A DNA stretch of 34,823 nt from positions 1-34,823 of the IMG/VR virus record IMGVR_UViG_3300006224_000023; one strand, 5' to 3'. Below are positions 18,722 to 32,959 of the stretch, piece after piece. The position numbers were made by a program, and so were the translations under genes. Within the stretch, counting starts at the first letter, position 1. Each line of letters starts with the position of its first letter. The notes under the pieces were generated by a model. That model was not told where the DNA came from, searched no databases, and saw only the letters and a list, made by a program, of their open reading frames with translations. Origin of the DNA: a virus.

Positions 18722-18724
18722 GTG

Positions 18725-19441
18725 TTAGAATCCGTAGTGCTCGCGGACGTAGTACCAAGAGGTGCCCGGAGGATAGGCGCCGTTGGGGGCGGGCTGTTGA
18801 GTGATCTCCTGGTCAGGCTGAACGAGGTCCTGGGCTCGGCAGCGGCGATAGCCTGCGAGGGCCTGCGCCATGTAGAACTGCGACTTCGCAGTCATGCCAC
18901 GCTCAGCACAGAGTAGCGAGCGCGCGTAGGAGAGGATGGGCTCGACCCACATGTCGGGCCAGCCGAGTTCCGCGTCATCCTGCGACGGGATGGTCAGCGC
19001 CTTGTAGTAGTTGATCGAGAGCGTGTCCTCTGCAGAAGGGGTGGGCACAAGCCGGATCTTGTTCTCGGCGCCTACTCGCGCTGTGGTGTAGTGGGTAGAC
19101 CCGCTGGTGCCCGTCTGGTCGTAGACGTACCGATCCCAGTCACGCTGGCTCAGGAAGAAGAGCGGTGCCTGAGCCAAGCGGACGGTGTAGGCGTGCTTGA
19201 AGTCGGTCGGGAGATCGTAGTCGGAGACGTTGGCGCTGACGGTGATGCTGGCCGCCTCGTCCATGAGCAGCTTCCAGTCACGGTGGTTCCACCACCGGAC
19301 GGCATCACCGATGCACTCGCCAGCCTCGGAGAGGGCGTTTGCTTGGCTGGAGCCCTGAATAGAACGGGCCACCCGCGCCTTGGCCTGGGCGTAGGTGACC
19401 GTGGTGGGGAGGTAGGCTCCACCGGGAGAGATGTTCGGCAT
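18725..19441 (-). CDS. Head-tail adaptor (gp11/tail tubular A-like)
   Basis: 238 residues. An N-terminal helical region (about 15-70, with AVRWWNHRDWKLL) precedes the SDYDLPTDFK strand motif and a RLVPTPSAEDTLSINYYK strand pair, then a C-terminal helix rich in Ala/Arg. This helix-beta-helix layout with a LPxDF motif is typical of podophage head-tail adaptors (T7 gp11 type) that dock below the portal. It opens the tail block right after the sugar genes and has its own promoter (19472-19500). The start ATG at 19441 has GGGAAGG upstream. Synteny with the tailspike and nozzle supports the call. Confidence 0.8.
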   Translation of the reverse strand: MPNISPGGAYLPTTVTYAQAKARVARSIQGSSQANALSEAGECIGDAVRWWNHRDWKLLMDEAASITVSANVSDYDLPTDFKHAYTVRLAQAPLFFLSQRDWDRYVYDQTGTSGSTHYTTARVGAENKIRLVPTPSAEDTLSINYYKALTIPSQDDAELGWPDMWVEPILSYARSLLCAERGMTAKSQFYMAQALAGYRRCRAQDLVQPDQEITQQPAPNGAYPPGTSWYYVREHYGF

Positions 19442-19467
19442 GCGCCTTCCCTGGCGTGGCTTCTCCC

Positions 19468-19971
19468 TTAGATTATACCATACCCCGTGCTATGAAACAA
19501 GCTTCCCGTCTTCCGCTTCTCCTCGTCCCAGCCTGCGCGCCGGAACGCCTTGAGCGAGGGCTTGTTCTCCTTCCACACCCAGGCACCGATGTCCCTGGTG
19601 CGGCGGTTGACGATGCGCAGGAGGGTCGAGCCGATGCCCTGGTCCTGGTACTCACGGGCGATGGCGATGGAGAGGCGCTTCCCCTCGGGCTTCTCGTCCA
19701 GGCGGAGGTACGCTACCGCCGAGTCTCGCCGGTCAGCGAGGACGAGGAAACAGGGCTTCTCCACCCGCTTCCGGAACCAGAGAATGTGGTCCAAGATGCC
19801 GATGTGGCGCGGCGGCAGATGGAAGTATGCCGCGTGCTCGTCAGCGTCGTTGTTGATGCTGAAGATAGCTTGGCAGTCTCCAGGGCGAGCCTTCCTAAGC
19901 ACCAAATATCCGCCGTCCCGCAGGTACAGGCGCGCGATTGAACCGAGAGCGTCGAGCGTCGATGGCGTCAT
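19468..19971 (-). CDS. GNAT N-acetyltransferase, PseH-like
   Basis: 167 residues. The GNAT acetyl-CoA loop is visible at Q109-D-Q-G-I-G114 after a beta strand (SIAIAREY), with an N-terminal strand (LVLRKARPGD) and a C-terminal LKAFRRAGW segment, all typical of the family. PseH acetylates the 4-amino group of UDP-4-amino-4,6-dideoxy-AltNAc before PseG acts. Context supports that role: it lies next to PseI-, PseF- and PseB-like genes. The ATG at 19971 has GAGGA about 5 nt before it and lies 77 nt inside the synthase gene. The stop overlaps the -10 box of the tail promoter. Other sugar amine acetyltransferases remain possible. Confidence 0.8.
   Translation of the reverse strand: MTPSTLDALGSIARLYLRDGGYLVLRKARPGDCQAIFSINNDADEHAAYFHLPPRHIGILDHILWFRKRVEKPCFLVLADRRDSAVAYLRLDEKPEGKRLSIAIAREYQDQGIGSTLLRIVNRRTRDIGAWVWKENKPSLKAFRRAGWDEEKRKTGSLFHSTGYGII
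19472..19500 (-). promoter_or_regulatory. Sigma70-like promoter for the tail block
   Basis: On the - strand: TTGTTT (19500-19495), 17-nt spacer, TATAAT (19477-19472; perfect -10). It lies in the last codons of the acetyltransferase gene and points at the adaptor gene (ATG 19441). A short leader with GGGAG follows. It can separate tail expression from the sugar genes. Confidence 0.7.
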
Positions 19972-20746
19972 GGGTATCCTCGATCATCTGCTTGAACTGG
20001 CTCGGGCGGAGTGCCCAGGAGCCGTTGTCGGGCGAGTCGGGCTGGTCGTCAAGGCGGATGTGCTTCTCAACGAGGCACACGCCCATCGTGGCGGCGACTA
20101 CCACGTCCATCCAGCCGGGAGTGTGGGAGCTGTATCCAGTGCGGAAGCCGCGACGCTTGAAGGCCGCGACCCGCATCAACCCCGCCTCCTTGTAGGGAGT
20201 TGGGTACTTGGAGATGCAGTGGGTTAGGATCAGTCCTGGCGAGCGGAGGAACTGCATGAGGCGGGAGAGCGAGCGGTCCCACGTCATGCCCGTCGAGAGG
20301 ATGAGGGGCTTCTGGTCAGCGGGGAGGGCGAAGACCAGCTCGGTGTAGAGGGCCTCGAAGCTGCCGATCTTCCAGGCGTCCACGTAGGGCGCAAGCACGG
20401 GGATCGCCCAGGGCGCGAAGGGCGTGCACAGGAAGGCCATGTCGCGCTGGTGCGCGTGCGTCTGCAGCGTGGGAATCCACTCGGGGTCCAGCTCGAAGGC
20501 AGGGTTCTGCTCTGCGGCCTTTCGCGCGATGTCAACCCACTTGAAGAGCTGGAACTTGACTGCGTGTGCGCCTGCGCCCTTCGCCTCCTCGATGAGCTGA
20601 ATCGCCCGCTCTAGCGAGCCCGTGTGATTGGACCCGATCTCCGCTACGAAGAGGGGGTACTTGGGGGCGTGGAGGTTGTGGCAGTAGAGCTGGGTGTGTC
20701 GCTTGTGACTGGGGACTCCATCGAGTCGCTTGAAACGGGAAGGCAT
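19895..20746 (-). CDS. Nonulosonic acid synthase (NeuB/PseI family), lacking SAF domain
   Basis: 283 residues. The NeuB TIM barrel is clear: FVAEIGSNHTGS (33-44), VKFQLFK (63-69), FLCTPF (105-110), KIGSFE (126-131), STGMT (151-155), LTHCISKYPTP (174-184, metal ligand H176), GYSSHTPG (204-211, H208) and VEKHI (226-230). The enzyme condenses phosphoenolpyruvate with a six-carbon acetamido sugar to give a nine-carbon nonulosonic acid. Family members normally run to about 340-350 residues with a C-terminal antifreeze-like (SAF) domain. This one ends soon after the barrel. The Asp of the usual SDHT motif is Ser. The ATG has AGGAG at ideal spacing, yet lies 103 nt inside the cytidylyltransferase gene. 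Context with PseB suggests a pseudaminic acid synthase, but neuraminate or legionaminate cannot be excluded from sequence alone. Confidence 0.88.
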   Translation of the reverse strand: MPSRFKRLDGVPSHKRHTQLYCHNLHAPKYPLFVAEIGSNHTGSLERAIQLIEEAKGAGAHAVKFQLFKWVDIARKAAEQNPAFELDPEWIPTLQTHAHQRDMAFLCTPFAPWAIPVLAPYVDAWKIGSFEALYTELVFALPADQKPLILSTGMTWDRSLSRLMQFLRSPGLILTHCISKYPTPYKEAGLMRVAAFKRRGFRTGYSSHTPGWMDVVVAATMGVCLVEKHIRLDDQPDSPDNGSWALRPSQFKQMIEDTHDAIDARRSRFNRAPVPAGRRIFGA

Positions 20747-21372
20747 ACAGGCTCCTCGCTAGCTCGGGCGTTGATCATCTCCCTGACAGTAGCGGTCAGG
20801 GGGACGCGCCGGAACATCCTGACGGCGGCAAGGCGGTCGGCCTCAGTGTCGATGGAGAGGTTGGGCGTGGGCGGGGCAGCGTCGTTCGGGAAGAACGCTG
20901 CGAGCCCGTGTTCGTGGCACGCCTGTAGGTAGTCGGCGAGGTAGATGAGGTTCTGCACGGTGCAGCCGCGAACCTCGCCGCCCTTCACCTCGAAGACGCC
21001 GAAGGGCTTCTGGTGCTCAATGACCTGAGCCGCGCACTTCTTGATATCCTCCGCGTCGGTGGCGAGCGAGTCGCCTGTGACTAGGATCACGACGGAGGCG
21101 TGGTAGCGGATGGCCGCCATGACCAGCTCCAGAAGGACGGAGCGGGTGGCCGGGCGGAAGTGGGAGAAGGGGATCTTCTTCCGGCGACACCACTTCGTCA
21201 CCTGGGTGTCAGGCGTGATTACGACGGTCTTGAAGCCTGATTCTCGGCAACGAGCGTAGACATGCTCCAGTAGGGAAGTCCCTTGAGGGTTGATCGGTTT
21301 GCGATACTTGCCGGGGAGGCGTACCGAGCTGTGGCGCGCGGTGACGCATACGAGTACGTTGGGTCCACCCAC
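20644..21372 (-). CDS. CMP-sugar cytidylyltransferase (NeuA/PseF family)
   Basis: 242 residues from GTG 21372 (AAGG about 7 nt upstream); the frame is open further upstream, where it overlaps the HNH gene. The nucleotide-binding N-terminus is clear: VLVCVTARHSSVRLPGK (6-22). A VTGD segment (possible metal-binding region) and an LSIDTEADRLAA segment near the C-terminus match the family. It activates the nonulosonic acid with CTP to give the CMP-sugar used by transferases. The last ~34 residues are Ser/Thr/Pro-rich and coincide with the start of the synthase gene in another frame, so they look like read-through added after loss of an earlier stop. SpsF-like specificity for another sugar is possible. 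Confidence 0.78.
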   Translation of the reverse strand: MGGPNVLVCVTARHSSVRLPGKYRKPINPQGTSLLEHVYARCRESGFKTVVITPDTQVTKWCRRKKIPFSHFRPATRSVLLELVMAAIRYHASVVILVTGDSLATDAEDIKKCAAQVIEHQKPFGVFEVKGGEVRGCTVQNLIYLADYLQACHEHGLAAFFPNDAAPPTPNLSIDTEADRLAAVRMFRRVPLTATVREMINARASEEPVCLPVSSDSMESPVTSDTPSSTATTSTPPSTPSS

Positions 21373-21806
21373 CTCAGTACCTTGTGTAGGCGGCTCTCCA
21401 GCCACCCCAGGCACAGGTTGCACCGCGTGCAGATTCCGCCCCGCAGTCGCCGGGTGCTGTGGCAGTGATCGAGGACGAGTTTCTTTTCTGTGGCGCCGCA
21501 TAGTCCGCACTCCTTCTTATTCACATGCGCGAGGTACTCTTCATAGGAGATACCGTATCGTGCTCGAACGTTACTCCGACGCGCTTTCTCCCGTGTCCTC
21601 GTCAAGTTCCTCAAACGCCACTGCCGACAGATTTCCGCCCGGCGCGTCCGTGCCAGAACAGTATGGTCCGGTGAGGGTGTTGACACCTCGGTAGGGCGGG
21701 TATCGGACGACGAAGTGGGAGGGGTACTCGTCGGTGTGGGGGAGTTCGTGCTCTCCGATGAGGACTTCGTGCCGCTTCTCCGTGTTGCGGAGTCCTTGTA
21801 TTTCAT
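21219..21806 (-). CDS. Endonuclease VII-type HNH nuclease nested between sugar genes
   Basis: 195 residues from the ATG at 21806, which has a perfect AAGGAG 6 nt upstream although it is inside the dehydratase gene. Residues 1-50 are Ser/Thr/Pro-rich. Residues 58-140 match Endo VII-type phage nucleases: ICRQWRLRN, YGISYEEYL (84-92), C100-x2-C103, LDHCH (112-116), R122-G123, C126-x2-C129-N130 and LG. The C-terminal tail is unstructured and lies over the start of the cytidylyltransferase gene. It overlaps its neighbours by 236 nt and 154 nt; only the middle, with the zinc and catalytic residues, is private sequence (21373-21570). It looks like a free-standing homing nuclease that landed between pseB and pseF. 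A shorter start (GTG 21686) is possible. Confidence 0.72.
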   Translation of the reverse strand: MKYKDSATRRSGTKSSSESTNSPTPTSTPPTSSSDTRPTEVSTPSPDHTVLARTRRAEICRQWRLRNLTRTREKARRSNVRARYGISYEEYLAHVNKKECGLCGATEKKLVLDHCHSTRRLRGGICTRCNLCLGWLESRLHKVLRWVDPTYSYASPRATARYASPASIANRSTLKGLPYWSMSTLVAENQASRPS

Positions 21807-22503
21807 ACCGTGCTCCTTCGGGGATCATGTCGATGAGTCGCTTGCTTGGAAGCTTGGGAACGAAGATCTCGCCACCCTGCATCTTGGTGAGGGCGAGGTC
21901 GATGAGCGCTACGGCCTGTCGCTGGGTGATCCAGAAGCGGGTGCATAGCGGGTCAGTGATAGGAAGGGGCGGATCACCGGGTTGCCACGCAGCAAGGCGG
22001 AGAGTGAAGGACCCCCGAGAATCCACAACGTTCCCATAACGGACAGCAGAAACAGCCGTCCCTTCGCTCCAGTCATTGAGCTGCATGGCAAAGTGCTCAG
22101 CGCAAAGTTTCGTCGCCCCGTACAGAGTTGTAGGTGCGACGCCTTTGTCAGTGGACACGACCAAGACTCTTTGAACCCCAGCCAGAATACTTTCCTGTAT
22201 GACATTGAGCGTCCCTATGATGTTGGTCTGGACCACCTCATCGGGGTTGTAGCCACCGTTGGGGATGATCTTGAGCGCGGCAGCGTGGATCACAGTGTGC
22301 ACGCCGCGCAGGGCCATGCGAAGCTTGTGCCGGTCGCGGATGTCTCCGAGGATCAGTCGGACGTTCGGGAGGTCGAGTTCCCTGAGTGCTTGGTGCTTCT
22401 GCTCGTCCCGCGAGAGGATGATGATCCGTTCTTGCCAGTCGCCGTGTTGGAGGTACGCCAAGCCGAGGGTTCCTGTGCCTCCAGTGAGGAGAAGTTTGCG
22501 CAT
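21571..22503 (-). CDS. UDP-GlcNAc 4,6-dehydratase/5-epimerase, PseB-like
   Basis: 310 residues from ATG 22503 (GGAGG about 13 nt upstream, inside the glycosyltransferase gene). Extended SDR enzyme: TGGTGTLG (7-14) binds NADP, SRDEQKH (31-37) is the PseB/FlaA1 signature strand, STDK (117-120) with D119/K120 and YGATK (128-132, Y128/K132) are the catalytic set, and RYGNVVDSRGS, LPITD, TRFWIT and GGEIFVPKLPS follow as in PseB. It catalyses the first step of pseudaminic acid synthesis (UDP-GlcNAc to the 4-keto-L-arabino sugar). The last ~79 residues coincide with the start of the HNH gene in another frame, and the C-terminus differs from the usual one and is slightly short. The enzyme call is firm and pathway assignment follows from neighbours. 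Confidence 0.88.
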   Translation of the reverse strand: MRKLLLTGGTGTLGLAYLQHGDWQERIIILSRDEQKHQALRELDLPNVRLILGDIRDRHKLRMALRGVHTVIHAAALKIIPNGGYNPDEVVQTNIIGTLNVIQESILAGVQRVLVVSTDKGVAPTTLYGATKLCAEHFAMQLNDWSEGTAVSAVRYGNVVDSRGSFTLRLAAWQPGDPPLPITDPLCTRFWITQRQAVALIDLALTKMQGGEIFVPKLPSKRLIDMIPEGARYEIQGLRNTEKRHEVLIGEHELPHTDEYPSHFVVRYPPYRGVNTLTGPYCSGTDAPGGNLSAVAFEELDEDTGESASE

Positions 22504-23597
22504 CGCTTTTTGATGTCCTCCGCGATGGCTGCTGAGCAGCCACCCTCTACGTATCCGTACCACGCGCGGGCGCGCGCCATCCCCGCTGCGACGATCTCGC
22601 GGGCTCGGGGCTTCTTCATGAGCATGATGAGGTAACGAGCGAGCTGGTTCTTGTTGTGAGCGTGCAGTGCTCCGAAGGGGCGCCACGCCCACCAGTCAGC
22701 CTGGGGGTGGTAGTCCACACAGATCACTGGCTTGCCCATCACCAGCGAGTCAGCGATCACACCGGACTTCTGCGTGACCACGATATCGGCGGCGTTGATG
22801 AGATCCACCAGCGGAGTGTCGTCCGTAACGTGGGCGGCGATGCCAGCGGTGTTGAGGCGTCCAGTGATGGTGGCGGCGGTGCCTGTGAAGCGTGTGCTCC
22901 ATAGGACCTTGAGCTGAGGAAACTGGTCCTGAAGGGTCTTCAGGACGTGCATCGTGTCAAGCTGATGATCGAAAGCCCAGTCATTCGAGGACCACTGGGT
23001 CAAGTAGTGCGTCCAGGTAGACGTGACCAGAACGTACGGTCCTTCTACTTCCAGACCAAGGGCCTCACGTGCGGCGAACCGATCCTGGAGCGCCCAGCGG
23101 TCGTACTGGGGCCGCCCCATCGGGAGGACTTCCCTGGTGTAGATGTTCTCGCTGCTCTTCTCCAGGAAGGTCTGATACTCGGGCGAGGCGTAGATGAAGT
23201 CTGCTGTGGGCTCGGCCTCGAAGTGGCCGATGAGATAGGTTGAGATCGCCCAGTGGTTGATCTCGAAGACGGGCACCCCACGGAGGCGGCAGGTGAGGGC
23301 GACAGCCCGGCGCTGCGACTGAACGGTGTTCCAGAGCACGCAGCCCACGGGCTTGTACTCGTCGATGAGGATGTGCGTGACAGCGACAGCCGCCGCTACG
23401 CTTTCGCGCGAGTCAGCGATGAACTGTGCAAGATCCACCCCCATGACAGGTGTGGCTGGGATGTGGAAGGACTGAACTGTCTCTCGGGCCTTGTCGGGGA
23501 AGGGGATCAGGTTGAAGTGCTTGGAGAGTTCAAGCATCAACTCTGCGCAGTCGAGGCGAAGACCGATGAGGAGGTTAGGCCTCTTCTCGGGAGGCAT
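22353..23597 (-). CDS. GT-B fold glycosyltransferase or sugar hydrolase
   Basis: 414 residues from ATG 23597 (AAGGA about 10 nt upstream); the frame is open 22 codons further. Two Rossmann-like halves are visible. The C-terminal half has the VTDDTPLVDLINAADIVVTQKSGVIADSL segment in pieces typical of GT-B enzymes (residues about 278-305), then GKPVICVDY. This resembles CDP-glycerol transferase-like and UDP-GlcNAc 2-epimerase-like proteins. It is directly upstream of pseB. It may transfer the finished sugar, or stand in for PseG, itself a GT-B fold hydrolase and the only missing step. The final ~50 residues (Ser/Thr-rich) lie over the start of pseB in another frame and are unlikely to be a folded domain. 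Confidence 0.7.
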   Translation of the reverse strand: MPPEKRPNLLIGLRLDCAELMLELSKHFNLIPFPDKARETVQSFHIPATPVMGVDLAQFIADSRESVAAAVAVTHILIDEYKPVGCVLWNTVQSQRRAVALTCRLRGVPVFEINHWAISTYLIGHFEAEPTADFIYASPEYQTFLEKSSENIYTREVLPMGRPQYDRWALQDRFAAREALGLEVEGPYVLVTSTWTHYLTQWSSNDWAFDHQLDTMHVLKTLQDQFPQLKVLWSTRFTGTAATITGRLNTAGIAAHVTDDTPLVDLINAADIVVTQKSGVIADSLVMGKPVICVDYHPQADWWAWRPFGALHAHNKNQLARYLIMLMKKPRAREIVAAGMARARAWYGYVEGGCSAAIAEDIKKRCANFSSLEAQEPSAWRTSNTATGKNGSSSSRGTSRSTKHSGNSTSRTSD

Positions 23598-23838
23598 CGA
23601 GATCTTCCTTGGTGCGGAGGGCAGCGCCGACGTAGTGGCGAGCGTCTTGGGCAAGGGCCTCACCGATGTTCACGCCCATGAACATGAGATGCGGCGCTCC
23701 GCGCCACCACTGATACTGGTAATGGCGAGAGGCCGCATCGAAGGCGCACTTCCGGCAGTCGTCATGCTGCTGGAAGTCATGCTTGCAGCCCGCGCAGACG
23801 GCGTGGTCGGCTGGGGTGATTCTGAAATCCTTAGACAT
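23575..23838 (-). CDS. Small Cys-rich (zinc-binding?) protein
   Basis: 87 residues from ATG 23838, overlapping the acyltransferase stop by 8 nt. The N-terminal third has CAGCKHDF and HDDCRKCAF (Cys/His spacing suited to one zinc ion). The rest is Tyr/Trp/Met-rich (HYQYQWWRGAPHLMFMGV) and ends in a charged helix. No family was recognised. It lies between an acyltransferase-like gene and a glycosyltransferase, with overlaps at both ends (8 and 23 nt), so it is part of the sugar operon. It might be a small regulator or adaptor for the sugar enzymes; the sequence does not say. Confidence 0.6.
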   Translation of the reverse strand: MSKDFRITPADHAVCAGCKHDFQQHDDCRKCAFDAASRHYQYQWWRGAPHLMFMGVNIGEALAQDARHYVGAALRTKEDLDASREEA

Positions 23839-24580
23839 TGAACAGCTTGTAGGAGGTCCTGAGGTGCGCCCCAAGATTGCGTTTCTTGCTCGCCATCGTT
23901 GGGGAGTTTGCCCCACCCAGGTCGAGGGATGCGAAGCGGGGGGCGACACTCCATGTCAGCGCGTCCAGTCCTGGACCCCACCCCGCGATCACGTAACCTC
24001 GGTCCTGGGAATCAACACCAACTATAAGTGTAGCAGGTCCACTATGGAAAGTCAAGGTGCTTGGAAGAATGCGCAACCGCTCGAAGGTGTCCGCAATCTC
24101 CTGCGTCGCCCACGGGATGTGGCACTCTGAGCCCTCGCCGTCCTCCACCTCGACCGCTTCGAGTTCGCGGAATGGGCGACATCGCCCATCCAGGAAGAGG
24201 GTGTATCGAATATCCGTGCGCCAGAGCGCCTGTGGGAACATCCAGTAGGCCGGGCGCACATCCACCAGAGCGGGGGCGTTCCACAGGCACGCAGGCTTCA
24301 CCTTCAACGCAACCTGCAGGAGAGCGGTGACTGCCTCGACCTGCTCGCGCTTGGTCTGGAGGATGCCCCGATACCCCACGAAGGGGATCGCGGTGAGGCT
24401 TTCTTCGACGAAGGCGGCGGCGACCAACTGGTCCTCAGACATGGCGCCGAGGATCAGCTTGGACGGCTGCGCGAGCCTCCAGTCACGGGTGACGTACAGA
24501 GAGGTCTGGTGGCTCTTGGCGACGAGGCTATCCAGGCTCGCGTCGGAGGGGTCCAGCTCTACTACCTTGATGGATCTCAT
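23831..24580 (-). CDS. FemAB/GNAT-superfamily acyltransferase-like protein
   Basis: 249 residues from ATG 24580, which shares ATGA with the stop of the glycosyltransferase upstream. The layout is that of FemAB-like double-GNAT proteins: a TSLYVTRDWRLA segment (about 30-41), a strand pair around LILGAMSEDQLVAAAF, a FVGYRGIL segment, then RYTLFLDGR near the middle and a second strand set around LIVGVDSQDRGYVIAGWG. Such enzymes transfer acyl or aminoacyl groups to amino sugars or peptides. In a nonulosonic acid gene block it could add an N-acyl group (formyl, acetyl or amino-acyl) to the sugar. A promoter lies inside the gene (24027-24055). The family call is by eye and moderate. Confidence 0.6.
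   Translation of the reverse strand: MRSIKVVELDPSDASLDSLVAKSHQTSLYVTRDWRLAQPSKLILGAMSEDQLVAAAFVEESLTAIPFVGYRGILQTKREQVEAVTALLQVALKVKPACLWNAPALVDVRPAYWMFPQALWRTDIRYTLFLDGRCRPFRELEAVEVEDGEGSECHIPWATQEIADTFERLRILPSTLTFHSGPATLIVGVDSQDRGYVIAGWGPGLDALTWSVAPRFASLDLGGANSPTMASKKRNLGAHLRTSYKLFNV
24027..24055 (-). promoter_or_regulatory. Internal sigma70-like promoter for the pse genes
   Basis: On the - strand: TTGACT (24055-24050), 17-nt spacer ending TGC, TACACT (24032-24027). It lies within the acyltransferase gene and points at the Cys-rich protein, the GT-B enzyme and the pse genes. It matches the promoter before the scaffold gene in both -10 and spacer end. Confidence 0.65.
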
Positions 24581-25776
24581 ACCATGCTCCGGAAGAGGAT
24601 CTGGCGGTACCACTCCGCCAACTTGGGCGCAGTGTGGACCACATGGAAGTTGTCCCACACGTACTGGTGGGCGCGGTAGGCAAGGCGGTGGCGGAGTGCT
24701 GCATCGTCAATGAGGTCGAGGAGGTACTGCTCGAACTCCTCCTCGCTGTTGTAGAGCAGACCCGTCTCGCCGTGCTTGATGTCTCGGCCATAGGGACCGA
24801 CGTTGGCTGCGAGGGTCGCGGCCGGGTGGGTGATGGCCGAGGACTCCATCCACTTGATCGAGGACTTGGCGTTGTTGAAGGGGTCGTCAACGATGGGGCA
24901 CAGGTTGATGTGATGCCCCAGGGTCGCCAGCCGGAGGGTGTACTTCTCGTAGGGCATCCAGGAGAGGTGCTCGAACTGCGCCTCTGGAACCGCCCGGCGC
25001 ACTGCTGGGAAGAGTGGCCCCCACATGAGGAAGCGTGCGTTGGGGCGCTTCTCCAGTGCAGAGCGAAGGGGGTCGATGATGGTCAGCCAGTCTTCGTAGT
25101 GCGCGTGCCCGCCCTGCCAGAGGATCGTGACGTTCTTCGGGCGGCGTGGGTGGATGTCAGGGTAGTCCTCATCGAGGAGAGAGTTGGGGAAGGTGAAGAC
25201 GTTCTTGCAGCCGTAGCTGCGATAGACCTCCGAGAGATACTCCGTCGAGCAGGTCACGCCAGAGCAGGCGCGGGCGGTCAGCTTGAGGATGTTCATCTTG
25301 GAGCGGTTCGCCATCACGTCGAAGACGTCACCGCCCATGTAGCGGTCGCCGTCCTTCCACAGCTCGATGGGCTCGGGCTCGTTGTCGTACTGGGTGAGGA
25401 TGCGGTCGCCCCGCTCCATCTTGTGGCCGTCAGGGGTGTGGGTACCCAGGCTGACGTAGCGGGGATTCCAGATCGAAATGCGCTCAACGTGGTCGTCGGC
25501 GTCGTAGATCACGTGGGGAGCGTGCCGCCGCCTGTTGAGGTCGTGGCTCTGGCGATCGCGGTTGAAGGCGTGGATCTGCCGAAGGAGCCCGCGCGAGCCA
25601 CGGAGGTAGTAGAGGTGGAAGTTGGCGCCGAACATCTGTTCGTCGCGGACTTCCTGCAGTTCCTCGATAATGGGAGCAGCGGCCCCAACGATCTTGAGGC
25701 CCATCAGCGGGGTGTAGATCCGGTAATGCGTGCAGGCGTTTCGCACGCGACCGAGCGTGCCGTAGACGGAGAACAT
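24577..25776 (-). CDS. GT4-like glycosyltransferase
   Basis: 399 residues from ATG 25776 (AGGAGA about 10 nt upstream). N-terminal half: a Rossmann-like region with HYRIYTPLMG, YDADDHVE and a variable Asp/Glu-rich loop. C-terminal half: NVTILWQGGHAHYEDW begins the donor domain, WMPYEKY follows, and IKHGETGLLYNSEEE is the family-4 nucleotide-sugar loop, ending in a HQYVWDNFHV helix. It transfers a sugar from an activated donor to an unknown acceptor in the cytoplasm. It is the first sugar gene after the head genes and is coupled by ATGA to the acyltransferase. It could build the glycan on a virion protein or on a host lipid or polysaccharide. Confidence 0.8.
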   Translation of the reverse strand: MFSVYGTLGRVRNACTHYRIYTPLMGLKIVGAAAPIIEELQEVRDEQMFGANFHLYYLRGSRGLLRQIHAFNRDRQSHDLNRRRHAPHVIYDADDHVERISIWNPRYVSLGTHTPDGHKMERGDRILTQYDNEPEPIELWKDGDRYMGGDVFDVMANRSKMNILKLTARACSGVTCSTEYLSEVYRSYGCKNVFTFPNSLLDEDYPDIHPRRPKNVTILWQGGHAHYEDWLTIIDPLRSALEKRPNARFLMWGPLFPAVRRAVPEAQFEHLSWMPYEKYTLRLATLGHHINLCPIVDDPFNNAKSSIKWMESSAITHPAATLAANVGPYGRDIKHGETGLLYNSEEEFEQYLLDLIDDAALRHRLAYRAHQYVWDNFHVVHTAPKLAEWYRQILFRSMV

Positions 25777-25793
25777 CCTTGTTCTGTCTCCTG

Positions 25794-26135
25794 TTACTTG
25801 AGGTTCTTGACCCAGCCGACCTGATACTCCTTGTGGCGGCGGAGCCATCTCCAGAAGATCGACTTGTCCTTATAGAAGTTGGGTTCGATGGCAAGGATGA
25901 TTGCGCGGACGTTCATGGGGATAACCGCCACCCGCATCATGGTGCCCTCGGCAGTCATGCCTACACGCTCGCGCGCGTTGATCACCTGACGATTCTCCCA
26001 GGCGATGTCACGCTCAGTCTCTAGCGCATCGAAGAACTCTACAAACGAAGGGACGCGACGAGTTAGCTCAGCCGCGTCCGTTACGTCGTCGAGGACAGTA
26101 GACTTGCCCCCGATGTTGAAGCTCCTGTAGAACAT
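25794..26135 (-). CDS. Hypothetical 113-residue protein
   Basis: 113 residues, MFYRSFNIGG at the N-terminus, then a charged helical middle (ETERDIAWENRQVI) and an aromatic basic end (FWRWLRRHKEYQVGW). No family was recognised. It lies between the last small capsid-adjacent gene (7 nt upstream) and the first glycosyltransferase (17 nt downstream). It may be a virion accessory or belong to the sugar block; position alone does not separate these. The start has only a weak AGGT site upstream. Confidence 0.6.
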   Translation of the reverse strand: MFYRSFNIGGKSTVLDDVTDAAELTRRVPSFVEFFDALETERDIAWENRQVINARERVGMTAEGTMMRVAVIPMNVRAIILAIEPNFYKDKSIFWRWLRRHKEYQVGWVKNLK

Positions 26136-26142
26136 GTGAAAC

Positions 26143-26391
26143 CTACTTGTTGGGGTAGAACTTCCCGCTGACCTTCTTGCCCTTCGCCACCGTCTTCTTA
26201 ACGGGGGTGTAGGCCCCCTTGGCGTGGGTGGTGCGGGTGGTCCCGGCCTCGGTGTCCTCGTCCATCATCAGAGGACCCATACCACCAGAGTAACGTTTCT
26301 CGGCGATGTCCTTCGCCACCTTCTTGTTGCGGATGCCAGACTTGACAACGGTGCGGATGTTCGCAGCCAGTCCAGGACTCTTACGTGCCAT
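26143..26391 (-). CDS. Small basic protein, 82 residues
   Basis: From ATG 26391 with GGAGA 4 nt upstream. Lys/Arg-rich: MARKSPGL, VVKSGIRNKKVAKDIAEKR, then a Met/Asp/Glu stretch, then a Lys/Thr/Val/Gly tail (VKKTVAKGKKVSGK). The strong positive charge suggests DNA or head binding. It follows a hairpin (26413-26438) that sets it apart from the capsid genes. No family was recognised. Confidence 0.62.
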   Translation of the reverse strand: MARKSPGLAANIRTVVKSGIRNKKVAKDIAEKRYSGGMGPLMMDEDTEAGTTRTTHAKGAYTPVKKTVAKGKKVSGKFYPNK

Positions 26392-26412
26392 TGTGTCTCC
26401 GGTAGGCGTTGA

Positions 26413-26438
26413 TACGGGCGCCCCGTGAGGCGCCCGTA
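26413..26438. terminator. GC-rich hairpin, probable attenuator after the capsid genes
   Basis: A perfect 10-bp stem (TACGGGCGCC 26413-26422, GGCGCCCGTA 26429-26438) with a 6-nt loop, between the 46-aa and 82-aa genes. No U-tract follows on the - strand, so it is more likely a partial terminator or RNA-stabilising structure than a full stop. The site matches the place just after the capsid gene where T7 has its terminator. Confidence 0.5.
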
Positions 26439-26448
26439 CCACTCTTTG

Positions 26449-26589
26449 CTAGCCGCGAGTCTTGCCCGGCCCCAGCGAGGTACCCTTGCGGGTGACCGTA
26501 CTGTCCTTCTTGCCATCCGGTGCAATCTTCACCGGGCAAGGAGTGGGCAGGCTCTCAGCCGTCTTGGTCTTCATCGGACCCTGAGCCAT
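26449..26589 (-). CDS. Small basic protein, 46 residues
   Basis: From ATG 26589, one base after the stop of the 78-aa gene, with GGAAG just upstream. It begins MAQGPMKTKTAE, has one Cys, and ends in KGTSLGPGKTRG. Lys/Thr/Gly/Pro-rich, probably unstructured. No family was recognised. It comes third in the capsid group and may be a decoration or head-stabilising protein. Confidence 0.55.
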   Translation of the reverse strand: MAQGPMKTKTAESLPTPCPVKIAPDGKKDSTVTRKGTSLGPGKTRG

Positions 26590-26590
26590 G

Positions 26591-26827
26591 TTACTTCTTC
26601 CCTTCCGCGCGGACACCACCGCGCGACGTGATGCGTCCAGCCGCCTTCGAGGAGAACCGAACACGGGTGGGAACCTCCGCCTCCCAGTTGAGACTGGGAT
26701 TGCGGAAGTTCTCCATCATGTCGGCGGGAGTCCGACGCGGACGATCGACACGCTCATCTCGAATGAGGTCCCGATTGGTCCGCGTCTCACCGTGAAGGCC
26801 AGCCTTCTTGGTAGGTAGGCGAGCCAT
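26591..26827 (-). CDS. Small basic capsid-adjacent protein, 78 residues
   Basis: MARLPTKKAGLH at the start, an Arg/Asp-rich middle (TNRDLIRDERVDRPRR) and a Lys/Gly-rich end. Ends just before the 46-aa gene, and starts 13 nt after the capsid stop with GGGAGAGA upstream. Strongly basic, so it may bind DNA inside the head or the capsid surface. No family was recognised. Co-transcription with the capsid gene is clear. Confidence 0.6.
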   Translation of the reverse strand: MARLPTKKAGLHGETRTNRDLIRDERVDRPRRTPADMMENFRNPSLNWEAEVPTRVRFSSKAAGRITSRGGVRAEGKK

Positions 26828-26839
26828 TCTCTCTCCCTA

Positions 26840-27829
26840 CTAGCTGAGAACGATGTTCTTGACGCCCCACGCACGGTAGCAGGAGCTGGGATCACCGATC
26901 TCAAGCGTGACCTCGCCCATGACGTAGCCGCGGGTGGCGTCGCCATTCGGAGCGAGAGGAACGTGATCGAAGGGGCGGTAGACCGCCAGACGGATCTGCG
27001 AGCGCTCCAGCCAGTAGACCTGACCGTAGGTGCCCGTCGAGATGGCCGCCGTGTGGTTCGAGGGCATGCGGATCCAGCGATTCAGGATCACCTCGACGAT
27101 CCCGAACTGGCTCTCGTACACCTCGACCGCGGCCACCAGCCGACGATCCGCCGCCGCGATGTTGCGCCGAGCGTTGCCATAACCCGTGAAGGCCATGACC
27201 TGCCGCGCAGCCGCAGCGTTGCAGTGGAAGACATCCGGCTTCCCACCGTTCTCGAAGGCGCGCTGGAGGGCGTTGTTGAAGCGCTTCTCCGTGATAACCG
27301 TCGAGGAGGCAGTGGCCGAACCCACACCATTCAGCGCCGAACCACGGAGGCTCGACCGCTTGCTGATGAGGTCGGAGAGGGTCTTCATGAGGCGGGCGCC
27401 ACCTTCGGCAGTTGCCGACTTGTGGGAGCCGGAGGGCGAGAAGATTCGCCGCTCAACGTTGCGGATGAGGGCCGCAGCGTTCTTCATGATCTGATACTTG
27501 TACTCGTCGTCCACGCCCGCCACATTGGCCGCGCGCTGCGAGTTCGACACCTTGACGGGGAGCTGGAAGATCTGCGTCCAGTTCTTGACTCGCGTGCGAG
27601 CGGTCAGAGCCGCCGACGCGAACTCGAAGCCTTCCCCAGCGCCAGCGGTCGAGGTCGCCGGAAGCGAGTCCGTCAGCCACTCATGGGTGACGTCGTTCGC
27701 CTCTGTAGTCTCGATGCTCGACAGGAGGGGAGTCTCCCGCGGCGAGATGTTAGTGATGAAGTCGAGGAGGTCTTCCCGGTTGCCCTTGCTACCAGGAACA
27801 CCACCGAAGGTGTAGGTTCCAGTACCCAC
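26840..27829 (-). CDS. Major capsid protein (DUF5309/SU10 type, HK97 fold)
   Basis: 329 residues. The N-terminal motif DFITNISPRETPLLSSI followed by THEWLTDSL is the signature of DUF5309 (SU10-type) major capsid proteins. A central region with LIRNVERRIFSPSG and a SALNGVG...ITEKRFNNALQRAFENGG segment, then FHCNAAAARQVMAF, and a C-terminal beta region with YWLERSQIRLAVYRPF and MGEVTLEIGDPSS, also fit. It builds the head shell. It lies 8 nt downstream of the scaffold gene, in the standard order portal-scaffold-capsid. No protease domain is visible in the window, so maturation may not need cleavage. Confidence 0.92.
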   Translation of the reverse strand: MGTGTYTFGGVPGSKGNREDLLDFITNISPRETPLLSSIETTEANDVTHEWLTDSLPATSTAGAGEGFEFASAALTARTRVKNWTQIFQLPVKVSNSQRAANVAGVDDEYKYQIMKNAAALIRNVERRIFSPSGSHKSATAEGGARLMKTLSDLISKRSSLRGSALNGVGSATASSTVITEKRFNNALQRAFENGGKPDVFHCNAAAARQVMAFTGYGNARRNIAAADRRLVAAVEVYESQFGIVEVILNRWIRMPSNHTAAISTGTYGQVYWLERSQIRLAVYRPFDHVPLAPNGDATRGYVMGEVTLEIGDPSSCYRAWGVKNIVLS

Positions 27830-27837
27830 AGTAACCC

Positions 27838-28581: not shown

Positions 28582-28617
28582 TGAAACCTCCCTGTTTACT
28601 GTGGGTTCTCCACAAGA

Positions 28618-28633
28618 CTACACTATAGTGTAG
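28618..28633. promoter_or_regulatory. Perfect 16-bp palindrome over the -10 box
   Basis: CTACACTATAGTGTAG is a perfect palindrome that covers the -10 (TACACT) of the scaffold/capsid promoter. It could be a repressor or activator site for the late switch. Its central part is AT-rich, so it could also assist DNA melting. No binding protein is identified. Confidence 0.45.
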
Positions 28634-28868: not shown

Positions 28869-30759
28869 CAGTGTCCTCCATCGTGTTCTGAAGCGGGCTC
28901 GCGCCTCCGGCTCCACCAGGGAGGTTCGGGATTGGCGCAGTGCCTGGCGCCGGGGGCGTGGTCGGTGTGCGCGCCGCCATGCCTGCCGAGGCCATGTTCA
29001 AGGCGAGTTGCTGGAGCGGGGGGACGGCCAGGAACAGCTCGTCCACGTTCGGGAAGTCGAACAGCTCGAAGGCTTGGCGCCCGAAGGTGATCCAGTTGAG
29101 CACCTGCGCCAGCGGCGTAGAGGCAACGGTCTGCAGCAGGGCCATGAGGTTCTGCTGCCGCACCTCCTTGGGAAGCATCTGTGAGGAACCGCGGGCTCGG
29201 GCGTTGTAGTCCTTGTTGAGGGCGTAGTCCGAGACGGCGATCTCCTCGGGCACCGGGAGGCCGGTCAGGGCGTCGGTGATGGCGTTCGAGCCAAGGATGT
29301 GTCGCTTGAGGGGGATGGGGAGGAACTGGCGGTTGAGGGCACGGTACCAGTTGGCGAGCGGCTCGATGAGCTGCTGCTCGCAGATTACGGTTTCGAGGAG
29401 GAGCCGGGTATTGACGGCCGCTTGGCGCCCAAGGAAGCCGCGAGCAGTCTCACGATCTGGCCCCGACGCACCCATGACCGCATCCTCATGGATTCCAGTA
29501 GCGTTTTGGAGCCAACGCCACGCATACTCCACTTCGGTGTGGGAGAGCTGGAAGCCGCGAAGATCGGGTACGAGAGGCTGAAGCGTCCCGTTCGAAAGCC
29601 CCTCAATCGGGATCCAACGATTGGGGCGCACGTACAGTTGATCAGGATCAACGCCGAGCATATCAGAGTCGTAAGCGTACGCCGGAGAGACGACGTTATC
29701 GAGGACATCCAGGCGGTTCGAGACGAGGCGGTTCGCCACCGCATTGAGGTGCTCTCCTAGTTCCGTCTTCGAGGGGCCATCGAAGTGATGGGGATCGACG
29801 ACGGGAGTGTAGGCAAGGAAGGGGTCCTCGCCGAAGTCGTAAGGAGTGGGGCGGTCCCGCAGGATTACCTTCCTGTTGGCGATGCTGATCACTCGGCGAG
29901 CCACGCCATCGGAACCGACCAGATCGTCAGGGACCAGCCCCCACATCTCGATGATCTCGACGGGCTTCGCGTAGCGCTCCTGCACGAACATCTCGTTCCG
30001 CAGGTAGCCCGCCCGATCCTTGTAGTCAGCCTCGATGTCAGCGACGAGGCCCGTCAGCTCGACCTCGCGCGCGGCACTCTTGTTGAAGAAGCCCAGCTTG
30101 GCGAAGGCGCGGATGTCGTCCAACTCCAGGTAGTAGCGCCGGATCTTCCAGCGCATGTCCCAGATGCGGGGGACTCGCGGCTGCGGGAAGAAGTCAAGGC
30201 GGTCGAGGACTTCCCAGTCAGGACCGTCGAACTTGATCACCTTGCGCCCGCGGATCTGCTCGACCAGTTGGCCGGTAATGGGCGTGGCGACCTGACTGCG
30301 CTCCGGCATGATCTCTTCCTGGTAGCGCCAGCCCACTTGGACGATGGCAGTGCCGTAGAGATCGCCGGAGAGGAAGGCATCGACGCCCTTCAGGTAGGAG
30401 CGCGAGTCCTGCATCTGCGCAGCGACGAGCAGCTCCTGCTGCCGGGCGATGGCGTAGTCCTCCTCACCGTAGCCAACGAAGGCGACAGGCGGGTGGGCGC
30501 CGAGGGTCGCGGATGCCTTGCGGGCAACATCCGACCAGACCGTGGAGAAGGTCATGGGGATGAAGATGTTGTTCCGGTACTCGGGCGCCTGGGGGTCGCG
30601 GTACCAACCACGGTAGAGGTCGTACCAGTGCTTACACTTGGCGAAGTACGGCTCCTGGTGCTTCTTCGACGTCTCGAAGCGATCCAGGACGAGCGTGCGT
30701 ACTGCCTCGTCGTGGTTGCGGAAGGAGGCCAGCGAGGGATAGGTGTAGGTTTCAGCCAT
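28837..30759 (-). CDS. Portal protein
   Basis: 640 residues. The N-terminal region (ETSKKHQEPYFAKCKHWYDLYRG in pieces, residues about 28-50), a NNIFIPMTFSTVWSDVARK segment, then SGDLYGTAIVQVGW, a wing region with DFFPQPRVPRIWDM and EIIEMWGLVPDD, a stem with LGEHLNAVANRLV, and the DRETARGFLGRQAAVNTRL crown-side helix match podophage-type portal proteins. It forms the dodecameric DNA gate and docks the adaptor. The C-terminal tail is Pro/Gly-rich. It overlaps the methyltransferase stop by 8 nt and follows terminase by three genes. No missing motif was noticed. Confidence 0.88.
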   Translation of the reverse strand: MAETYTYPSLASFRNHDEAVRTLVLDRFETSKKHQEPYFAKCKHWYDLYRGWYRDPQAPEYRNNIFIPMTFSTVWSDVARKASATLGAHPPVAFVGYGEEDYAIARQQELLVAAQMQDSRSYLKGVDAFLSGDLYGTAIVQVGWRYQEEIMPERSQVATPITGQLVEQIRGRKVIKFDGPDWEVLDRLDFFPQPRVPRIWDMRWKIRRYYLELDDIRAFAKLGFFNKSAAREVELTGLVADIEADYKDRAGYLRNEMFVQERYAKPVEIIEMWGLVPDDLVGSDGVARRVISIANRKVILRDRPTPYDFGEDPFLAYTPVVDPHHFDGPSKTELGEHLNAVANRLVSNRLDVLDNVVSPAYAYDSDMLGVDPDQLYVRPNRWIPIEGLSNGTLQPLVPDLRGFQLSHTEVEYAWRWLQNATGIHEDAVMGASGPDRETARGFLGRQAAVNTRLLLETVICEQQLIEPLANWYRALNRQFLPIPLKRHILGSNAITDALTGLPVPEEIAVSDYALNKDYNARARGSSQMLPKEVRQQNLMALLQTVASTPLAQVLNWITFGRQAFELFDFPNVDELFLAVPPLQQLALNMASAGMAARTPTTPPAPGTAPIPNLPGGAGGASPLQNTMEDTVGREGSPGQA

Positions 30760-31327
30760 TCAGGTCGTCGGGCAGTGGGGCGGTTGACGCCTCGGGGAGT
30801 CCTTCTGGACTGAAGATGGGGTCCTTGATCGCCTTCCCCTTGGCCTGCAGGTAGACGATGCCCATGTTGTCGGCCTCGGTCTGCGCGACTTCGCCCTCGG
30901 GCGGCATGAACGAGAAGGCCGCCTTGATCAGGTGGGGGGCATAGAGGGAGCGCCAGGGATGGCTCTGCCAGACACCGCCGTTGTTGAAGACGGCGTAGTA
31001 GAAGAAGGAGTTGAGATTCCAGAACGAGACGTGCGTGGGGTCCTGGTCGGCGCCCCGCCCATCCGTGGAGGGGATCACCAGCTCAGCGATGCCACCCGGC
31101 TTGAGCACGCGCCAGCACTCGTTCATGAAGTGGATGCGGTCGGGCAGGTGCTCGGCGAGGTCGACGGCGATGATGCGGTCGGCGTAGTTGTCGGGGAACG
31201 GCCACTTCTCGCGGAGGTCGGCCACCACGTCCACGCCGGGGAAGCGGAACATGTCCACGTTGATGAACGCGGGCGAGGCATGGCGGTTGCAGCCGAGGTT
31301 GATGATGACAGGCTTCTTCTTACTCAC
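30752..31327 (-). CDS. Class I SAM-dependent methyltransferase
   Basis: 191 residues from GTG 31327 (AGGAG 7 nt upstream). SAM-binding motif I LGCNRHA (11-17), the acidic strand end VVADLRE, an AVDLAEHLPD motif, and the VLKPGGIAEL motif of Methyltransf_11-like enzymes are present; all fit small-molecule or sugar methyltransferases better than DNA methylases (no NPPY/DPPY). It lies with the DegT aminotransferase and the exonuclease between terminase and portal. It may methylate a sugar of the proposed virion or host glycan, or a protein. The C-terminus is Pro-rich and lies over the portal start by 8 nt. Confidence 0.8.
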   Translation of the reverse strand: MSKKKPVIINLGCNRHASPAFINVDMFRFPGVDVVADLREKWPFPDNYADRIIAVDLAEHLPDRIHFMNECWRVLKPGGIAELVIPSTDGRGADQDPTHVSFWNLNSFFYYAVFNNGGVWQSHPWRSLYAPHLIKAAFSFMPPEGEVAQTEADNMGIVYLQAKGKAIKDPIFSPEGLPEASTAPLPDDLNG

Positions 31328-31829
31328 TTGTTGGCTCCTCTCCCATTATACCACATTCACTACCCTCTTGTGTAGTGGCATGGTATACGTCTCGGGTCAG
31401 TTCTACGTCGTCGATGCAGTATTGGACTAGCTCGCCCCAGCGGCCCTCAGAGGCGAGGGCGGGGGCGTCTTCACCGTGGCCGGTCTTGCCCCGGCCCACG
31501 TAGCGTTGCCCCGCCTTCTCCAGGCTCAGGGGCTCACCGAACTCCATCTTGAGGTCGCGGTGGTCCTGGAGGAGGAGGGTTCGGCCGAGAAGGGACTCGA
31601 TCACACGGATGTCGAAGCGGAAGCCATTCCAGGTGACCACCTCATCGGCGGCCTCCAGGTAGGCGGCCAGGGCCTCGATGGTGTGGTCGTCCCACACGCG
31701 GGTGATGTTGCCGGGCTCCTCGATGGTGACGGCGATGGACATACCCCCCTCACCGCGGAGGAGGGCGTCCCAGCCACCTACGTCAGCAGCGAGGGCTCGG
31801 GTTTCGATGTCGAGGAAGACGCGCTTCAT
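31320..31829 (-). CDS. DEDDy 3'-5' exonuclease (RNase H-like, YprB/DnaQ type)
   Basis: 169 residues. Exo I LDIET (D7/E9), exo II WNGFRFD (N68/D73) and exo III YCIDDV (Y137 with D141) are all present in the correct order, with a KMEFGEPLSLEKAG segment between them as in standalone RNase H-like exonucleases. It degrades 3' ends of DNA or RNA. The genome also carries a proofreading domain inside the polymerase, so this second enzyme may serve recombination, host DNA breakdown or end processing. The start shares ATGA with the stop of the DegT gene. The last ~14 residues contain the -10 of the next promoter. Confidence 0.8.
   Translation of the reverse strand: MKRVFLDIETRALAADVGGWDALLRGEGGMSIAVTIEEPGNITRVWDDHTIEALAAYLEAADEVVTWNGFRFDIRVIESLLGRTLLLQDHRDLKMEFGEPLSLEKAGQRYVGRGKTGHGEDAPALASEGRWGELVQYCIDDVELTRDVYHATTQEGSECGIMGEEPTSE
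31345..31374 (-). promoter_or_regulatory. Weak sigma70-like promoter before methyltransferase and portal
   Basis: On the - strand: TATAAT (31350-31345, perfect) with a poor -35 (TACACA, 31374-31369, spacer 18). It lies in the end of the exonuclease gene, 18 nt before the methyltransferase GTG. The -10 is strong; the -35 may be helped by an activator. Confidence 0.45.
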
Positions 31830-32959
31830 GGGTTCACCTGGACAGTACGGATGGAGAGGTTCATGCGCTCCACGTCAGCCTGGGTTGCGGGCGGAGGTGC
31901 CCAGACCATGTTGGTGTTGAAGGTGTGCGCGGCGACGAAACAGCCGGGCTTGAGGTTCTTCTTGTACCAAGGGACGCAGCAGAGTGGGGTGTGGTAGCTA
32001 CGGGTGAAGCCGGGCGGCATGCTGCCCTTGGGATGCAGGAGCCCCCAGAAGATGAAGGGCGCGCCGTTGACCTCCATCGGGACGAAGGTGGTGCTGGAGA
32101 CGAGCCTGGCGAGGGCTCGGCTGGCCTGATAGGTGGAGTGCAACTTCTCCAGGATGTAGGTGAGGCGGGCGTCCAGGACGGCGGCCTGTAGCTCGGTCAT
32201 GTGGTGGTTGCCGCCCCACTGATCGGCAGAGGTCACGTCGCCGTGGTTGCGCAGGCCCTGGATGCGGATGTGAGGGCTCTCGTCCTTGGTGATGAGGGCG
32301 CCACCCTCGCCGCAGGAGAGGACCTTGCCCTGCTTGAAGGAGAGGACGCCGATATCGCCCTGGAGGCCCGCCCAGTAGCCTGTGACGTGGTTGCGGGTGC
32401 AGAAGGCTTGCGCACAGTCCTCGACGACGGGGATGTGCGGGAAGGAGCGCTTCATCGCAGCCACCGCAGGCACGCCCCCGTGCACGGAGACGGCGATGAT
32501 GGCGGCGGGCTGGAGGGCGAACTCCCAGTCCATGAGGACTTCGGCGATGGTTTCGGGGGTGATGAGGCCGGTGAGTGGGTCCACGTCGGCGAAGACGGGC
32601 TCGGCCCCACAGGCAAGGACGGCGGAGGCGGTGCCCGCCATCGTGTAGGCGGGGACGATGACACGATCGCACGGGCCGACACCGAGGGCTCGCAGGGCGA
32701 GTTCGAGGCCGGTGGTGCAGGAGGTGGTGAGGGTGACGTACGCGCCGCCGTAGATCTGAGAGAGGCGGTCTTCGACGCGCGTGCAGAAGCCCTGCGGCTT
32801 GCGATTGGAGACGCGATAGCCTGAGTAGCTCTTGCTGAGGACTACGGACTTGAGGTTGTCGAGGATCAGGCGATCCTCAGCGGATAGGGCTGCGGGGTCC
32901 AAAGGCTGCTTTGGGTCGGCGGTGCCAGTGGTCGTAGGAGGCCCGAATAGATGTGCCAC
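31826..32959 (-). CDS. DegT/DnrJ/EryC1/StrS aminotransferase, PseC candidate
   Basis: 377 residues from GTG 32959 (GAGGAG about 7 nt upstream). PLP-dependent sugar aminotransferase: TTSCTTGLELAL (78-89, phosphate loop), PAYTMAGTASAVL (103-115), VVEDCAQAF (178-186, D181 holds the PLP nitrogen), SFKQGKVLSCGEGG (207-220, K212 forms the Schiff base) and GGNHHMTELQAAV. These enzymes move an amino group from Glu or Gln to a keto sugar. PseC, the second step of pseudaminic acid synthesis, belongs here, and the phage has a PseB-like enzyme but no other aminotransferase. The SFKQGK/CGEGG form is also like enzymes of aminocyclitol pathways, so the substrate is uncertain. It overlaps terminase by 83 nt and lies apart from the other pse genes. 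Confidence 0.85.
   Translation of the reverse strand: MAHLFGPPTTTGTADPKQPLDPAALSAEDRLILDNLKSVVLSKSYSGYRVSNRKPQGFCTRVEDRLSQIYGGAYVTLTTSCTTGLELALRALGVGPCDRVIVPAYTMAGTASAVLACGAEPVFADVDPLTGLITPETIAEVLMDWEFALQPAAIIAVSVHGGVPAVAAMKRSFPHIPVVEDCAQAFCTRNHVTGYWAGLQGDIGVLSFKQGKVLSCGEGGALITKDESPHIRIQGLRNHGDVTSADQWGGNHHMTELQAAVLDARLTYILEKLHSTYQASRALARLVSSTTFVPMEVNGAPFIFWGLLHPKGSMPPGFTRSYHTPLCCVPWYKKNLKPGCFVAAHTFNTNMVWAPPPATQADVERMNLSIRTVQVNP

Follow-up and report, generated by a model that had tools for sequence, protein, structure and literature searches.

Organisation of the locus

The window analysed here, the whole of a 34,823-base IMG/VR virus record classed as linear (IMGVR_UViG_3300006224_000023), carries a candidate nonulosonic acid (NulO) biosynthesis cassette at positions 19468-25776. 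The cassette comprises eight minus-strand open reading frames (ORFs) with short or overlapping junctions (overlaps of 4 bases for GT4/Fem and about 100 for PseF/PseI), and is flanked by the major capsid protein (MCP) gene and an SU10-type tail-adaptor gene. The number, coordinates, single direction and placement of these ORFs are all as given in an earlier note made from the sequence alone. That inventory overlooked an endonuclease VII-like ORF between PseB and PseF and, outside the cassette, a DegT aminotransferase and a methyltransferase. The features that bear on the pathway are as follows (coordinates, strand, identity and best matches).

31826..32959, minus: DegT/DnrJ aminotransferase, PseC/LegC candidate, in the TerL-exonuclease interval (PF01041, 159 bits)
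26840..27829, minus: MCP, upstream boundary (phrog_1328, 210 bits)
24577..25776, minus: GT4-type glycosyltransferase, 399 amino acids (aa) (phrog_7162, 92 bits; NF038229, 38 bits)
23831..24580, minus: FemAB/GNAT-like putative acyltransferase, 249 aa (conserved in relatives)
23575..23838, minus: Cys-rich protein of 87 aa, with which the inserted block begins (no family match)
22353..23597, minus: GT-B-fold enzyme, candidate NulO glycosyltransferase or PseG substitute (PF04464, 26 bits; PF02350, 18 bits)
21571..22503, minus: PseB-type UDP-GlcNAc 4,6-dehydratase, 310 aa (TIGR03589, 246 bits)
20644..21372, minus: PF02348 cytidylyltransferase in the PseF position (PF02348 (CTP_transf_3), 40 bits; NF003952, 34.5 bits)
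19895..20746, minus: NulO synthase of the NeuB/PseI family, barrel only (PF03102, 149 bits)
19468..19971, minus: GNAT acetyltransferase, PseH candidate (PF00583, 32 bits)
18725..19441, minus: SU10-type head-tail adaptor, downstream boundary (PF24175 SU10_adaptor, 67 bits)

On the minus strand, the right half of the window encodes TerL, followed by the DegT aminotransferase, exonuclease, methyltransferase, portal, a protein in the scaffold position, MCP and small proteins. GT4, Fem-like, Cys-rich, GT-B and PseB genes and the endonuclease VII ORF come next, and then the cytidylyltransferase, NeuB-family synthase, GNAT, SU10-type tail adaptor and tail genes. Minus-strand promoter-like sites are few within 18500-34823; Fem contains two of them, around 24,050. 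On the same strand, no terminator-like site was seen in the stretch from MCP to tail adaptor. This picture is consistent with one late transcription unit without proving it, and a location among structural genes fits the earlier suggestion of timing with virion assembly.

Enzymes of the predicted pathway

The dehydratase was clearly assigned. It had been called PseB-like from its STDK and YGATK motifs, and the PseB profile indeed outscored the other sugar families (TIGR03589, 246 bits, followed by FnlA at 137 and LegB at 56), with Polysacc_synt_2 at 200 bits; the TIGR03589 score lies below the equivalog cut-off of 407.75. The closest PDB chain was 2gn4, a UDP-GlcNAc C6 dehydratase (192 bits; next 141), with which both motifs align. 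The synthase belongs to the NeuB family and its best solved relative was 8h2c, a pseudaminic acid synthase (92 bits), with sialic acid synthases at 80. Moreover, it keeps E36, K64, Q66, K126, S129, H208, H229 and D240, which we take to match the NeuB barrel active site.

The DegT aminotransferase scored 101.7, 99.9 and 97.4 bits against the RffA, LegC and PseC models, respectively. The best models of its orthologues were LegC for L172 (143 bits) and PseC for L211 (144 bits). Divergence from the L173 orthologue was 0.47 at nonsynonymous sites (dN) and 2.7 at synonymous sites (dS).

Conservation in related phages

When PseI or MCP was used as a single-protein query, scans of viral sequences gave no close match, and alignment queries were needed. 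The earlier note had proposed looking for the same gene order in related phage contigs, and it was found in one distant relative, L090 (IMGVR_UViG_3300025314_001329), and partly in L211/L219 (3300009506_001321). In L090, in which MCP and TerL are each 44% identical to those of the window, the order matches on either side of the cassette and reads DegT-MT-portal-MCP-g113-GT4-Fem-Cys-GTB-PseB-PseF-PseI-tail adaptor (MT, methyltransferase; g113, a conserved 113-aa protein). Identities were 56% for PseB, 41% for the synthase, 40% for GT4 and 33% for Fem; the cytidylyltransferase counterpart scored 43 bits. L090 also has a Gfo/Idh/MocA oxidoreductase (GFO) gene before DegT, and no endonuclease VII ORF between PseB and PseF. 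The third, partial copy runs TerL-GFO-DegT-MT-portal-MCP-g113-GT4-...-Fem-Cys-GTB-PseB to the end of the contig.

A TerL scan gave 47 loci. In all but one (L185) of the loci showing both MCP and tail adaptor, GT4 lies between them. GT4 counts as a core gene of the lineage, most members of which lack the cassette. Close relatives obtained by a scan with Fem (L303-L313) run GT4-Fem-tail adaptor and carry none of the NulO genes; those whose TerL-portal interval can be seen lack DegT as well. They show the empty site for both inserts, cassette and DegT. Wherever both sites are visible DegT and the cassette are never found apart, despite the roughly 6 kb between them. In the TerL tree, DegT carriers fall into two groups (window+L173 and L170+L178+L211; only the DegT site is visible in L173 and L178) with non-carriers in between, and forcing the carriers into a single clade was rejected (approximately unbiased test, p 2.3e-5). 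Therefore, DegT and the cassette have been gained or lost jointly at least twice, which argues for a single function.

Glycosyltransferases and a second phage lineage

The GT4 family assignment of the earlier note is backed by the phrog_7162 match. A role of GT4 in DNA hypermodification was weighed as well; the window showed no obvious base-modification gene, although no search was aimed at such genes.

The Fem-like ORF stands as predicted and is conserved in L090, L219 and the cassette-less L303-L313. Profile searches gave it no family match of its own. Its AlphaFold model (predicted local distance difference test, pLDDT, 47) was unfit for a fold search, and hhalign against the FemAB of L155 aligned only 11 columns, so that any homology of the two is putative. 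A FemAB identity would come solely by analogy with a TIGR04421 match in a second phage lineage, described below. For the Cys-rich protein, homologues at the corresponding position were confined to L090 and L219.

The call of a GT-B enzyme drew some backing from a weak PF04464 (Glyphos_transf) match; PF02350 (Epimerase_2) scored 17.8 bits, under its cut-off of 30.6. The closest folds to its AlphaFold model (pLDDT 75, predicted template modelling score 0.72) were UDP-GlcNAc 2-epimerases including NeuC (VIA Z 22-25.6), with other GT-B enzymes at about 20-22. Assignment as PseG or NeuC by sequence was rejected, with no profile over its cut-off and an hhalign probability of 0.6% against an epimerase pair; fold alone favours a hydrolase.

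A second, unrelated phage lineage was represented by seven contigs (L143, L123, L125, L145, L153, L155 and L158). Its order is PseI-PseB-AKR-aminotransferase-PseH-FemAB-GT-B-cytidylyltransferase (AKR, aldo/keto reductase), between MCP/adaptor and virion structural genes. PseI scored 274-291 bits and PseB 358-376 bits, and the aminotransferase is class-III; profile scores are from L155 and L143, and the gene order of the others is by local profiles. FemAB of this lineage matches TIGR04421, and its GT-B matches BFO_1060 and TIGR04396 ('surface carbohydrate biosynthesis') glycosyltransferases, of which the window GT-B is a remote homologue. We lean towards a transferase role for the window GT-B because of this sequence family; the case for a hydrolase is that its fold is nearest NeuC and that PseG is missing. 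Attempts to link the BFO_1060 family with GtfS, a Tannerella enzyme proven to transfer Pse, did not succeed.

The two lineages share a NulO block with FemAB or Fem-like, GT-B and cytidylyltransferase genes in the head-tail interval, and both lack PseG. They differ in that the second has MCP phrog_9953, a clear PseI, and a class-III aminotransferase and aldo/keto reductase with no DegT. It is a tentative possibility that a NulO module linked to the capsid-tail genes arose independently in unrelated lineages. A SAF-less synthase, GT-B and a FemAB-type acyltransferase would then stand in for PseG and the customary transfer enzymes, and virions would receive an acylated, phage-specific NulO as they are assembled.

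Relatives of NeuB and PseB are common across IMG/VR, in at least 555 and at least 318 stretches, respectively. PseB-, NeuB-, DegT- and cytidylyltransferase-like ORFs occur together in 38 of the viral loci fetched, a count in which the local profiles may catch other short-chain dehydrogenase/reductase (SDR) enzymes. In a third phage contig, L093, a synthase and a GNAT adjoin a head morphogenesis gene, with PseB, DegT and cytidylyltransferase nearby. At L093:9484-12674 (plus strand), an N-acetyl sugar amidotransferase, whose 311 bits exceed the cut-off, and HisH/HisF-like genes recognised by eye suggest an amidinated nonulosonic acid. Among 30 viral records checked, the PseG profile was absent or weak in all 30 (no match at all in 28), and the 2-epimerase family was absent or under its cut-off.

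Interpretation of the cassette

The earlier proposal of a phage-borne NulO pathway is well supported, with an aminotransferase present and the block conserved in relatives. We read the cassette as a late-expressed NulO supply block, probably of pseudaminic type, that feeds phage glycosyltransferases and has the virion as its likeliest target, and give this reading a probability of roughly 0.55. Taking the reaction order from the established Pse pathway, PseB would convert UDP-GlcNAc to an inverted 4-keto sugar, which the DegT enzyme would aminate at C4 and the GNAT would acylate. UDP would be removed by hydrolysis, with the GT-B protein and an enzyme of the host as candidates. The SAF-less synthase would condense the sugar with phosphoenolpyruvate, and the PF02348 enzyme would produce CMP-NulO. 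The GT-B protein and/or the core GT4 would transfer the NulO to its acceptor, and the Fem-like protein would perhaps add an acyl group. The stereochemistry of the sugar, the hydrolase and the function are predictions, as is the attachment to virion or host surface that had been proposed earlier. A virion protein is the most likely acceptor: the virion is favoured because the capsid-tail order includes GT4, sometimes together with Fem, even where the NulO block is absent.

Several observations weigh against this reading. The NeuB model (TIGR03569, 149.9 bits) and the PseI model (TIGR03586, 147.8 bits) tie on the synthase, so that the earlier PseI/NeuB-like label holds for the family, with PseI and NeuB equally good as names. 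The SAF domain is absent, leaving only the catalytic barrel. In trees of NulO synthases the window protein was not firmly placed with Campylobacter PseI; it paired with L090 at a support of only 88 amid many long branches, and the trees did not decide between PseI and NeuB. The name PseF-like drew no profile support, as KdsB-type models were the sole NCBIfam cytidylyltransferase matches and the PseF model TIGR03584 had no match anywhere in the window. Similarly, the predicted PseH-like enzyme is a generic GNAT with no match to the PseH model TIGR03585, and it is not kept in L090, where an S-adenosylmethionine (SAM)-dependent methyltransferase occupies its place. Two further enzymes, PseC and PseG, had been named as completing the pathway: the aminotransferase provides a PseC candidate, and the PseG profile (TIGR03590) had no match at E <= 10 in the window record, which may be incomplete. 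The cassette is therefore not classed as a canonical Pse pathway, though it would work like one. The sequence reveals no acceptor protein, and only two complete cassettes of the window type are known, both metagenomic.

The main rival on target keeps the same NulO pathway and has the sugar placed on the host surface (lipopolysaccharide, capsule or S-layer), where it would keep out competing phages or prevent re-adsorption of progeny. Glycan islands of T4-like cyanophages and pelagimyophages have been read as host O-chain modification (PMC7029224, PMC7824862), and the GT-B homologues match a family named for surface carbohydrate biosynthesis. However, those islands are variable, carry many glycan genes and sit in large genomes, whereas the window block lies within virion genes rather than in a hypervariable host-recognition region, fixed between GT4-Fem and the tail adaptor with an empty site in relatives. 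The surroundings of the block showed no obvious flippase, polymerase or membrane glycosyltransferase, and even in relatives that lack the cassette the core GT4 keeps its place next to the capsid gene. We consider a host-surface target unlikely.

The product might instead be another activated acid sugar, of legionaminic-, neuraminic- or Kdo-like type. The tied synthase models and the KdsB-like cytidylyltransferase would fit this, as would a DegT for which RffA, LegC and PseC fall within 5 bits of one another and whose L172 orthologue is nearest LegC. The dehydratase speaks the other way, being clearly of the inverting PseB type by its signature motifs, with LegB at only 56 bits; an inverting PseB-type enzyme sets the L-altro configuration. 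Moreover, PseI is clear in the second lineage, where GT-B and cytidylyltransferase are likewise its partners. A sugar other than the pseudaminic type seems improbable.

It is slightly less likely that the pathway is incomplete and only alters or tops up an existing NulO pathway of the host. PseG is missing from the window and found no match in 28 of 30 further viral records that carry NulO genes, as this would have it, but five to six enzymes are retained together along with the separately placed aminotransferase, and in a NulO-making host PseB and the synthase would be redundant. That the cassette is recently acquired cargo with no stable role is very improbable and was already disfavoured: an endonuclease VII ORF breaks the block and most lineage members lack the cassette, but its order is conserved in relatives only 30-60% identical, its GC content resembles the rest of the window, catalytic residues are kept, and the dN of DegT is well below its dS.

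Relation to known systems

The supply block shares a PseB-type dehydratase, DegT, GNAT, NeuB-family synthase and PF02348 enzyme with the CMP-pseudaminic acid pathway PseBCFHGI (e.g. Tannerella forsythia, PMC6120980). It differs in being phage-borne, in lacking PseG and the SAF domain of the synthase, in having its aminotransferase displaced to the TerL-portal interval, and in the addition of GT-B, Fem-like and Cys-rich proteins. In the Kyanoviridae record MH319754.1 (L007), SDR, cytidylyltransferase, DegT and SAF-less NeuB genes are consecutive, which resembles the window set. Mycobacteriophages, according to Freeman et al. 2023 as cited in PMC12619734, carry glycans on capsid and tail tube subunits made with phage-encoded glycosyltransferases, as would be shared with the window; the sources consulted report no de novo NulO supply, and virion glycans of the uncultured window phage are a prediction. 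Acinetobacter phage enzymes also alter a NulO sugar (EpaA/EpaB, PMC12053666; O-acetyltransferases, PMC6586298), but they act on host-made Pse, whereas the window pathway would start at UDP-GlcNAc.

Phage glycan islands, glycosylated virions and Pse-modifying phage enzymes are already known (PMC7029224, PMC7824862, PMC12619734, PMC12053666). Our literature search found no whole NulO supply block with a fixed place among the head and tail genes of two unrelated lineages; a search on auxiliary metabolic genes and pseudaminic acid also found nothing, which is not proof of absence. The study of glycosylated phage virions is young, and few cases are known. If genes within the virion block of a small phage do let it make and activate a sialic-acid-like sugar, and one or more unrelated lineages have a comparable block, a shared selective benefit would be indicated, for which shielding, adsorption and competition are candidates. 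Such phages would also be a source of compact synthases without a SAF domain and of new candidates for NulO transfer or hydrolysis.

Further features and observations

Three other minus-strand features lie in or near the cassette.

30752..31327, minus: SAM-dependent methyltransferase (MT), in the exonuclease-portal interval (phrog_6636)
25794..26135, minus: conserved 113-aa protein (g113), immediately upstream of GT4 (homologues in 10 relatives)
21219..21686, minus: endonuclease VII-like ORF in the PseB-PseF gap, start uncertain (PF02945, 43 bits; phrog_2914, 84 bits)

The methyltransferase is also present in cassette-less relatives and is therefore not pathway-specific. The endonuclease VII ORF overlaps both PseB and PseF and has the appearance of a homing-type insertion; similar ORFs are found in the exonuclease-portal interval of L183 and L187.

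SAF-less synthases were counted among intact NeuB ORFs of viral loci L007-L220 and genome loci L221-L300, with fewer than 45 aa after the barrel as the definition. They made up 42/139 in viral contigs and 2/83 in cellular genomes, in sets drawn mainly with SAF-less queries. Cys-rich ORFs (CCxxC) adjoin the NulO genes of the second lineage (L143:7898-8350, L123:8822-9184, L125:8774-9229, L145:15911-16330), and the window likewise has a Cys-rich protein beside its NulO genes, a putative likeness by pattern.

The contig L002 is 99.3% identical to the window over 5.7 kb and prolongs it by about 4.5 kb. Between these near-identical strains, 35 differences were counted in the compared genes, with 17 in DegT and 12 in the methyltransferase. 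The amino-acid changes in DegT are confined to its first 74 residues. This pattern may reflect recombination. Past the right end of the window, L002:780-3017 (plus strand) encodes an amidoligase-like protein, recognised by eye, and after it a protein whose N-terminus MCSISG, again by eye, resembles class II glutamine amidotransferases. Within the window, a 1453-aa protein (4263-8624, minus strand) has a partial phrog_3147 match and, by eye, an ADP-ribosyltransferase-like stretch. The DNA polymerase at 1034-3277 (plus strand) has an N-terminal uracil-DNA glycosylase-like domain, with residues 7-118 matching uracil-DNA glycosylase chains and residues 418-724 matching Pol I.

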